From Symplocastrum torsivum CPER-KK1 (GTDB lineage: Bacteria; Cyanobacteriota; Cyanobacteriia; Cyanobacteriales; Coleofasciculaceae): a stretch of DNA of 64,000 nt. Shown one piece after another: positions 35,296 to 37,467 of this stretch (the first letter of the stretch is position 1; each line of letters opens with the position of its first letter). The stretch lies in NCBI GenBank assembly GCA_019358875.1, contig JAHHIF010000034.1, positions 1 to 64,000 of the forward strand. The letters run 5' to 3'. The position numbers and the translations under genes are program-made. The notes under the pieces were generated by a model, which saw nothing but the letters and a program-made list of their open reading frames with translations, ran no database searches and was not told the DNA's origin.

Positions 35296-35940
35296 TCATA
35301 TAGATGACTTTCCTGTAAGCGAAGCTTCCGGAGCATTAACTATTGTCACACCAATCATGCTGTCACGGGTGACTAGCGCAGCGAGTGCTTCCTCATCCAT
35401 CCCCTCGGTTGATGCTGGACGCTGGGGTAAAACAAGATAACGCATCGTCGCCGTACTGTCATGTACGCGAACTTCGACAGATTCAGGAATATGAGTCCCA
35501 AATTCAGCAAGCACTGCACGCGGTTCTCGTACAGCACGAGAGCGATAGGCTTTACTCTTGTACCAATCGGGTGGCAATCCTAAAATCATGCGGGGATAGC
35601 AGGAACAAAGAGTACAAACGACGAGGTTGTGGACTTGTGAGGTATTCTCGACTACGACTAGCTTTGTCACCCCCACTTCTATACCTAGTTCCGTAGCGGC
35701 TGCACTCCCGTCCTTAAGCAATCGGGTTTTGTAGTCTGAGTTAGTCCAAGCACGGGCAACAATTTTAGCTCCAAGGGCAGGACTACGTGCATCCATTACC
35801 TCGACGGTTCGACGCACTTCGTCAGCAGTAATCAGCCCTTTCTCAATGAGCAACTCACGCACAGCGATTTCTAACTTCTGGTAGTAGGTTAGAGGTGCAT
35901 CATCGTCGGGTCGCACTTCATGATTAGAGTGGTTGTGCAT
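35296..35940 (-). CDS. Cobalt-type nitrile hydratase alpha / thiocyanate hydrolase gamma-like subunit
   Basis: Catalytic subunit of the nitrile hydratase superfamily, which adds water to nitriles or hydrolyses thiocyanate at a non-corrin Co(III) or Fe(III) centre. The 214-residue product carries the metal claw CTLCSC (109-114); Thr at the second position indicates cobalt. GLPPDWYKSKAYRSR and MRYLVLPQRPAST are the flanking conserved blocks. The residue three after the last claw Cys is Arg117 (CYPR), where cobalt nitrile hydratases normally have Trp; I recall Arg there in thiocyanate hydrolase, so that activity is plausible. It is the last of three adjacent subunit genes. Confidence 0.85.
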   Translation of the reverse strand: MHNHSNHEVRPDDDAPLTYYQKLEIAVRELLIEKGLITADEVRRTVEVMDARSPALGAKIVARAWTNSDYKTRLLKDGSAAATELGIEVGVTKLVVVENTSQVHNLVVCTLCSCYPRMILGLPPDWYKSKAYRSRAVREPRAVLAEFGTHIPESVEVRVHDSTATMRYLVLPQRPASTEGMDEEALAALVTRDSMIGVTIVNAPEASLTGKSSI

Positions 35941-35950
35941 CGTCCTAGAT

Positions 35951-36235
35951 TTAGGCTGGCTCTAGCCAGTGTTCGGAAATCTCAATTACAAGTGTGTCAT
36001 TCTTGGAGCCTGTGTACTCAGTCCAGACATCACTCTGCTGAAACCGTACCCAATAGAGAGGCTGTTTTGGAAGTCCATCACGTCCGTAAGCAAGTTCTTC
36101 TGGATTGGCAAACTCTCCACAAATGCGTTCAACAACCCCAATCTTGCCGCGAATGTAGAACGGTGTACGAACATGACCAGGGGGATAAGCAACACGAACT
36201 GAAACGCGATCGCCAACAGTAAAACGTGTACTCAT
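35951..36235 (-). CDS. Nitrile hydratase beta, C-terminal half / thiocyanate hydrolase-like small subunit
   Basis: A 94-residue SH3-like barrel corresponding to the C-terminal half of nitrile hydratase beta: TRFTVGDRVSVRVAYPPGH, RTPFYIRGKIGVVERICG, and LYWVRFQQSDVWTEY. I place the start at ATG 36233-36235, 7 bp after the upstream stop; a start at 36262 would overlap the upstream gene by 20 bp. In ordinary nitrile hydratase this domain is fused behind the helical half encoded by the neighbouring gene. It ends 10 bp before the alpha-like gene, so the three form an operon. Confidence 0.85.
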   Translation of the reverse strand: MSTRFTVGDRVSVRVAYPPGHVRTPFYIRGKIGVVERICGEFANPEELAYGRDGLPKQPLYWVRFQQSDVWTEYTGSKNDTLVIEISEHWLEPA

Positions 36236-36242
36236 CGTATAA

Positions 36243-36548
36243 CTATTGCTCACGCTCCTCAATCTCCGCTAACTTGCGTCCTAGTTCATCCACTGTCAGA
36301 ACACCTTTCTCTAAGAGGACTTGAGTAAGCGAAGCAATCCAGCGCTCATAGTAGCTCAGCTTTTCGTAAGCCTCAGCACCAAGAGACTCAATCCCACGCC
36401 GCAGTTCATCATCACAAATTAATGGGGGATTCCTATTTGATAGGAGTACGACAAGAGCATCAACACGCTTTTCCCATAGCTCATAGTTGTGTTCAGCGCG
36501 TTCTATTGCTCCAGTCGGCAAACCCCCAACATCGTGATACCCTCTCAT
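36243..36548 (-). CDS. Nitrile hydratase beta, N-terminal half / thiocyanate hydrolase-like subunit
   Basis: A 101-residue helical protein matching the N-terminal half of nitrile hydratase beta: GYHDVGGLPTGAIERAEHN (the D-x-GG motif), DDELRRGIESL (with Arg50/51 where the beta subunit contacts the metal-claw oxygens) and SYYERWIASLTQVLLEKG. A free-standing activator (p14K type) also resembles this fold, but the DVGG start and YYERW block favour a beta half. First gene of the three-gene operon. Confidence 0.8.
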   Translation of the reverse strand: MRGYHDVGGLPTGAIERAEHNYELWEKRVDALVVLLSNRNPPLICDDELRRGIESLGAEAYEKLSYYERWIASLTQVLLEKGVLTVDELGRKLAEIEEREQ

Positions 36549-36798: not shown

Positions 36799-37467
36799 AT
36801 GGAGACAAACAAGGACGTAGCAATCGAACACCAAAATGTACCTGTTGAGCATCGGGGATTGCATGATTTTTTGTACAGTTCTCCAGATGAACACGATACT
36901 ACTGATGTAACTGATAAACAGGAACTTGAAAGTAATAGCAATCAAGTCTTATCGCTTGAGGCTTGGTGCGCCCTTTCGCAAAATGCAAAGGTTGCTGGCG
37001 TATATGCGGTGCTGAACGATAAGCAACAAACACAGTACATCGGCTACTCGCGCAATGTGCTACTCTCCCTCAACAGCCATGTTGCCCAAAATGGGACGGC
37101 AGCTTGTGCCTTCGTGCGAGTGCAGACGTTCAAGTTCCCGAAGCGCCAAGAAATGGAAGACTTGCGTGAAGCGTGGCTTTCCGAACTGGACTACATTCCT
37201 CCAGGAAACAGTGAGGAGAGTGCAAATTGGGCAAGTACAGTCGGTGAAGCTGCAAAGGCAACGATGTCAGCAAGTGAGCGTAATGCTTATGAGGAGAAGA
37301 AGCTTAAATTGCGTAAAGCGATGGCTGACACTGCACTGGTTAAGGAACTAGAGGCAAAGGATAGGAGTACTACCGAAACTCGTCATCAGATTGAGGCAGC
37401 AGTGGAGAATGACGATTGGAGTACTGTTATAGACGGACAGACGCAGGAAACCAAGCCTGAAAACTGA
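36799..37467 (+). CDS. GIY-YIG domain protein with helical C-terminus
   Basis: A 222-residue protein. After about 50 acidic residues, AGVYAVLNDKQQTQYIGYSRN (about 76-96) gives the GIY/YIG strand pair with Arg at the expected helix, followed by FKFPKRQEMEDLREAWLSEL (conserved Glu candidates). The C-terminal third is a Lys/Glu-rich helix. Proteins of this kind occur widely in cyanobacteria and plants and are not shown to be nucleases. It is divergent from the split hydratase operon (250 bp between starts). Confidence 0.7.
   Translation: METNKDVAIEHQNVPVEHRGLHDFLYSSPDEHDTTDVTDKQELESNSNQVLSLEAWCALSQNAKVAGVYAVLNDKQQTQYIGYSRNVLLSLNSHVAQNGTAACAFVRVQTFKFPKRQEMEDLREAWLSELDYIPPGNSEESANWASTVGEAAKATMSASERNAYEEKKLKLRKAMADTALVKELEAKDRSTTETRHQIEAAVENDDWSTVIDGQTQETKPEN

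Follow-up and report, generated by a model that had tools for sequence, protein, structure and literature searches.

A probable activator-less three-subunit cobalt nitrile hydratase encoded by the cyanobacterium Symplocastrum torsivum CPER-KK1

Introduction

The nitrile hydratase (NHase) of Streptomyces canus, ScNHase, consists of three subunits of 10.4, 11.4 and 21.3 kDa, which are encoded in the order anhD-anhE-anhA with no activator gene (PMC7329996). It hydrates acetamiprid, thiacloprid and benzonitrile but refuses indole-3-acetonitrile, and AnhD, which corresponds to the N-terminal half of an NHase beta subunit, acts as a chaperone for metal and subunit swapping (PMC7329996). Another three-subunit enzyme, PnhF of Microvirga flocculans, has the gene order beta-alpha-beta and hydrates flonicamid (PMC11573777, PMC8278588); it is counted among the NHases without an activator (PMC11573777). 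Two further enzymes of the same superfamily have structures in the PDB. The two-subunit cobalt NHase (Co-NHase) of Pseudonocardia thermophila (4ob1/1ire) has a fused beta subunit, a Trp after the Cys-Tyr-Pro (CYP) of its metal claw and a separate activator gene. In thiocyanate hydrolase (SCNase) of Thiobacillus thioparus, ScnBAC (2dd4), beta is divided between two genes, the N-half first and the C-half second, which precede the gene of the claw subunit; the claw reads CTLCSCYPR. Here, we describe an operon of the cyanobacterium Symplocastrum torsivum CPER-KK1 that shares features with all of these enzymes. It lies in a window of 64,000 nucleotides, which is the whole stretch of DNA analysed.

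Gene content and domain composition of the operon

The operon spans positions 35296-36548 of the minus strand and contains three genes, transcribed in the order N-half, C-half, alpha (Table 1). The C-half starts 7 bp after the stop of the N-half and alpha 10 bp after the C-half, and the two halves are in different reading frames. In alignments, the N-half matches the N-terminal region of Co-NHase beta as well as the beta subunit of SCNase (2dd4_B), and the C-half matches the C-terminal region of NHase beta as well as the alpha subunit of SCNase (2dd4_A). An earlier note on this DNA had described the three genes, both gaps, the CTLCSC claw and Arg117, all of which we confirmed. It had also rightly recognised the short genes as halves of beta; the order in which it named them, C- and N-terminal, is that of the plus strand, and transcription begins with the N-half.

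Table 1 Features of the hydratase operon in the window.
Feature	Position	Strand	Description
Beta N-half gene	36548-36243	minus	101 aa; NHase_beta_N PF21006, E 6.5e-17; equivalent of ScNHase AnhD / SCNase beta
Beta C-half gene	36235-35951	minus	94 aa, ATG start; NHase_beta_C PF02211, E 4e-22; equivalent of ScNHase AnhE / SCNase alpha
Alpha (metal-claw) gene	35940-35296	minus	214 aa; NHase_alpha PF02979, E 9.5e-83
Cobalt claw and following residues	35590..35616	minus	Cys109-Thr-Leu-Cys112-Ser-Cys114-Tyr-Pro-Arg117; from the translation, aligned with 2dd4_C (CYPR) and 4ob1_A (CYPW)
Beta N-half Arg50 codon	36399..36401	minus	Counterpart of Arg52 of NHase beta, which is conserved and binds the claw; the residue before it, Leu49, is Arg in SCNase; from alignment columns

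Against the NCBIfam model of nitrile hydratase alpha (TIGR01323), the alpha subunit scored 263.5 bits, above the cut-off of 249.85, and it carries the CTLCSC claw, as a Co-type NHase alpha does. Against the SCNase gamma model (TIGR03887) it scored 213.4 bits, below the cut-off of 291.45 (nine clear SCNases reach 382-397 bits). The residues of a Co-type NHase beta are present but spread over two genes, namely Arg50, Tyr66 and Trp70 in the N-half and Arg23 and Arg29 in the C-half. The window resembles the P. thermophila enzyme in fold, claw, claw-binding Arg, Tyr66, Trp70 and the LPP motif, and differs from it in the three features given above.

The arginine after the claw

In the alignment, Co-NHase (4ob1_A) has CYPW and the window alpha has CYPR. 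The gamma subunit of T. thioparus SCNase (2dd4_C) also has CYPR (the alignment shows CTLCSCYPRPILGQSPEW), so that the Arg given for SCNase in the earlier note is correct. The chain 3vyg_C (SCNase) departs from 2dd4_C by CYPW, i.e. Arg to Trp, and 3vyh_A (P. thermophila NHase) has CYPR at a site that is CYPW in the other chains of this enzyme. Judged from these sequences, 3vyg and 3vyh are reciprocal swaps made by others at exactly the Arg/Trp position after CYP. A paper in J Biosci Bioeng in 2013 reportedly deals with two arginines that control SCNase selectivity, the second of which we take to be Arg90 of SCNase beta. Arg117 in place of Trp would change the charge of the pocket, and the substrate might change with it.

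Relatives with a split beta subunit

We compared the operon with related loci fetched from genomes and plasmids. About 50 non-SCNase homologs, from Alphaproteobacteria, Streptomyces and cyanobacteria, combine a split beta with the Arg (Arg-type). Nearly all CYPR loci have a split beta; most show the order N-half, C-half, alpha (N-C-A), and a plasmid-rich group the order C-A-N. Outside SCNase they carry the motif GLPPDW or a similar one, whereas SCNase has GQSPEW. The CYPW (Trp-type) loci mostly have a fused beta; it is split in nine, and in eight of these the genes run A-N-C with an activator gene behind them. Two cyanobacterial Trp-type loci (L002 and L079) have the order alpha, N-half, C-half, activator, and represent an independent split or fusion event. 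The nine clear SCNases have a split beta, and two plasmid loci of Roseomonas and Azospirillum annotated as scnC (L073 and L074) are Arg-type with a fused beta. Since non-SCNase Arg-type loci are split and these two scnC loci are fused, a split beta alone is neither necessary nor sufficient for SCNase. The two scnC loci have CbtA/B or HupE and TauE/SafE genes nearby, in a two-gene SCNase-like layout. A more divergent hydratase (L006:63-2565, cyanobacterium G133) falls outside all three main groups: its alpha of 360 aa has a CTVCSCYPQ claw and a long insertion within the alpha domain, and it is accompanied by a fused beta and an extra N-half-like gene.

The window and ScNHase share the N-half, C-half, alpha order, the cobalt claw and the lack of an activator. 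The two belong to different phyla and were compared by gene architecture. A Streptomyces plasmid locus with the same gene order sits in the Arg-type lineage of the window. PnhF, compared here by its description only, also has a split beta but differs in gene order; the plasmid locus of Microvirga terrae that shows the PnhF order is Arg-type. From their architecture and from these Streptomyces and Microvirga relatives, we infer that ScNHase and PnhF carry the Arg as well. The nearest named relative is the nthA locus of Planktothrix agardhii plasmid p1 (L069), which is uncharacterised and has 70% alpha identity, the same gene order and CYPR.

Phylogeny

The alpha-only tree (104 rows, 203 columns) resolved three groups: the Trp-type with a support of 100/99, SCNase with 100/100 and the split Arg-type with 80/85. 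Starred branches nested the window in the Arg-type. The sister relations of the three clades stay open in this tree because it is unrooted, without a suitable outgroup. In a concatenated tree of alpha, N-half and C-half, from which the Arg column had been removed (100 rows, 388 columns), the Trp-type was split from Arg-type plus SCNase at 100/100. SCNase joined the Streptomyces/C-A-N subgroup of the Arg-type at 98/97, on a long branch (1.18). Monophyly of the Arg-type without SCNase was not rejected by the AU test (p = 0.187). Because of this result and the long SCNase branch, we regard the nesting of SCNase within the Arg-type as a lead, not a result. In the N-half tree, which has few columns and long branches, the N-halves of Arg-type and SCNase lay apart from Trp-type betas and activators (SH-aLRT 96).

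A grouping of the window with SCNase had AU p values of 0.017 (concatenated) and 0.052 (alpha alone). For a grouping with the Trp-type the values were 0.138 and 0.169, respectively; this grouping is not formally rejected, but the bootstrap branches contradict it. The earlier note had named a superfamily tree as one check of its suggestion that the operon may encode an SCNase-like enzyme. The window lies apart from the Trp-type NHases by bootstrap, although AU p values of 0.14-0.17 do not formally reject that grouping, and it also lies apart from the SCNase clade. Alpha identity averages about 48% to SCNases and is 47-57% to Trp-type enzymes.

Pocket residues

The claw residues, N-half Arg50, Tyr66 and Trp70, and C-half Arg23/Arg29 are all conserved through the Arg-type lineage. 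Arg-type and SCNase have in common alpha Arg117, N-half Arg51 and Arg69, C-half Thr24 and a Tyr74 position that is missing from the Trp-type. The window also resembles SCNase in an RR and a YY-x-RW motif of the N-half and in a Tyr insertion of the C-half that is absent from Trp-type NHases. At other positions Arg-type and Trp-type agree and SCNase differs: Glu54 of the N-half (Asn in SCNase) and, in the C-half, His21 (Tyr in SCNase) and Pro25 (Gln or Met in SCNase). The window follows the NHases at each of these, and it has GLPPDW where SCNase has GQSPEW. N-half position 49 is Arg in 12/12 SCNases, mostly Leu, Lys or Ser in the Arg-type and Leu in the window. This difference stands in MAFFT and pairwise alignments alike, and is robust to the alignment because both SCNase residues that could correspond to position 49, Arg90 and Arg91, are arginines.

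Absence of an activator gene

A second N-half-like (activator) gene was found at 35/40 Trp-type loci versus 1/52 Arg-type loci. In the S. torsivum genome, the only gene matching PF21006 was the beta N-half itself, apart from a weak match in the N-terminus of alpha, and thus no separate activator was found. The layout of the operon is therefore that of ScNHase, with the order N-half, C-half, alpha and no activator gene. Given this absence and the precedent of AnhD, the beta N-half probably doubles as a chaperone, which would serve cobalt insertion and subunit swapping besides being a structural subunit.

Genomic context and distribution

The operon is isolated and lies downstream of panB, with a propeller gene before panB. 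This propeller-panB pair recurs in many related genomes, and a hydratase was present at that site in none of those examined. In the sampled phylum, alpha had any match in 16/386 genomes; most matches were short and leader-peptide-like, and full-length homologs occurred in few genomes. The only relative of the same family with a full-length homolog (G790) is of the Trp type, and the nearest relatives include Alphaproteobacteria (73% identity). This patchy distribution suggests that the operon was probably acquired laterally. Its GC content differs little from that of the surrounding DNA.

No amidase and no cobalt transporter adjoin the operon; a NicO-family transporter is encoded on another contig. 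Matches to an NtcA-type nitrogen box occurred only in coding DNA, with 0 in the 250 bp upstream of the operon, and a scan for promoters and terminators around the operon gave nothing above chance. A divergently oriented neighbour (positions 36799-37467 of the window) gives a weak match to a GIY-YIG nuclease domain (E 7.5e-05).

Neighbourhoods of the relatives were compared by tblastn with annotated neighbours. Downstream of most plasmid-borne Arg-type loci of C-A-N order lie genes for aquaporin, DUF302 and cobalt transporters. On the alphaproteobacterial plasmids L071, L072, L076, L077 and L078, aquaporin, DUF302 and CbtAB or NixA lie downstream in varying combinations, and chlorite dismutase (L076) or sulfite oxidase (L075) is encoded near two C-A-N loci. 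Cobalt transporters and aquaporin beside these relatives support the view that the enzyme uses cobalt and acts on a small molecule, although the window is without such neighbours. In P. agardhii p1 (L069:274-6621) and in cyanobacterium G312 (L174:1444-8060), genes for a methyltransferase, a TauD/TfdA dioxygenase, a NADAR protein, a GST and an asparagine synthase precede a split Arg-type hydratase. The accessory genes of the two loci are 78-91% identical, and the cluster resembles a biosynthetic pathway in which a nitrile, or the amide derived from it, is used. Unlike the P. agardhii hydratase, which ends this conserved asnB cluster, the window operon is outside any such cluster.

Probable function of the operon

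We consider it likely that the operon encodes an activator-less three-subunit Co nitrile hydratase of the S. canus AnhD-AnhE-AnhA type. This reading is based on the TIGR01323 score, the conserved residues, the placement in the Arg-type lineage, the lack of an activator and the precedents of ScNHase and PnhF. Two points weigh against it: neither an amidase nor a cobalt transporter neighbours the operon, and Arg117 might alter the substrate. The three proteins would form a complex that corresponds to an alpha-beta heterodimer, in which the two short ones jointly replace beta. The CTLCSC claw of alpha is predicted to bind low-spin Co(III) with two of its cysteines oxidised, and the oxidised claw may be held by arginines of beta (N-half Arg50 and C-half Arg23 or Arg29). 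A Co-bound water or a sulfenate would then attack the carbon of the cyano group, yielding an amide.

The Arg in the pocket could also indicate a hydratase specialised for a cyano compound that is small or charged, such as cyanamide, cyanide, an N-cyano compound or a biosynthetic nitrile, with organic nitriles as poor substrates. Two N-cyano insecticides are among the best-described substrates of the S. canus enzyme, which refuses indole-3-acetonitrile, and the hydratases of the nearest cyanobacterial relatives end the biosynthetic-looking cluster described above. However, the S. canus enzyme also takes benzonitrile, PnhF takes flonicamid, acetamiprid is hydrated by ordinary two-subunit NHases too, and the window operon lies outside such a cluster. 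We therefore regard this specialisation as unlikely.

An SCNase, as raised in the earlier note, is less probable still, and we give it a small chance. The complex would then split SCN- into carbonyl sulfide and ammonia, and Arg117 would bind the anion. This reading draws on the gene order and split shared with T. thioparus SCNase, on CYPR as in 2dd4_C, on the concatenated tree, which places SCNase within the Arg-type lineage, and on the choice by others of the CYP+1 position as a swap between both enzymes (3vyg/3vyh). The gene order is indeed that of SCNase, but it is not diagnostic, as it occurs in about 50 non-SCNase homologs, and the split beta together with the Arg is no sign of SCNase for the same reason; relatives with the same layout, such as ScNHase, hydrate nitriles. 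Membership in SCNase is rejected by the model score, by the tree, in which the window is outside the 100/100 clade, and by a pocket residue, as the window has Leu49 instead of the invariant beta Arg. The NHase-type Glu54, His21, Pro25 and LPPDW of the window and its lack of a P15K-like activator gene also speak against it. Finally, an ordinary two-subunit NHase with a beta broken by frameshift or sequencing error, to which the adjacency of two halves that jointly equal beta might point, is practically untenable, as the halves are well-formed separate genes and the split is conserved in the Arg-type lineage, with separate genes in most of the grouped relatives and annotated as such in several species including Planktothrix.

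Implications for the family

The preferred reading, a three-subunit nitrile hydratase, makes the window one more cyanobacterial example of a widespread, little-studied lineage, in which the Arg after the claw, the split beta and the lack of an activator travel together through Alphaproteobacteria, a Streptomyces plasmid and cyanobacteria. For annotation, a split beta with CYPR must not be called thiocyanate hydrolase. The interest of the operon lies in its evolution: SCNase branches either next to or within the Arg-type group, although its nesting is insecure. It is conceivable, if rather doubtful, that activator-less three-subunit hydratases of the Arg-type are the stock from which SCNase arose, and that they, the cyanobacterial enzyme of the window among them, retain a partly charged pocket and act on heteroatom-bound cyano groups (thiocyanate, cyanamide, N-cyano) as well as on nitriles. 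The Arg-type relatives are natural material to test which of two pocket arginines turns an NHase into an SCNase, and they also suit the study of cobalt insertion without a dedicated activator.
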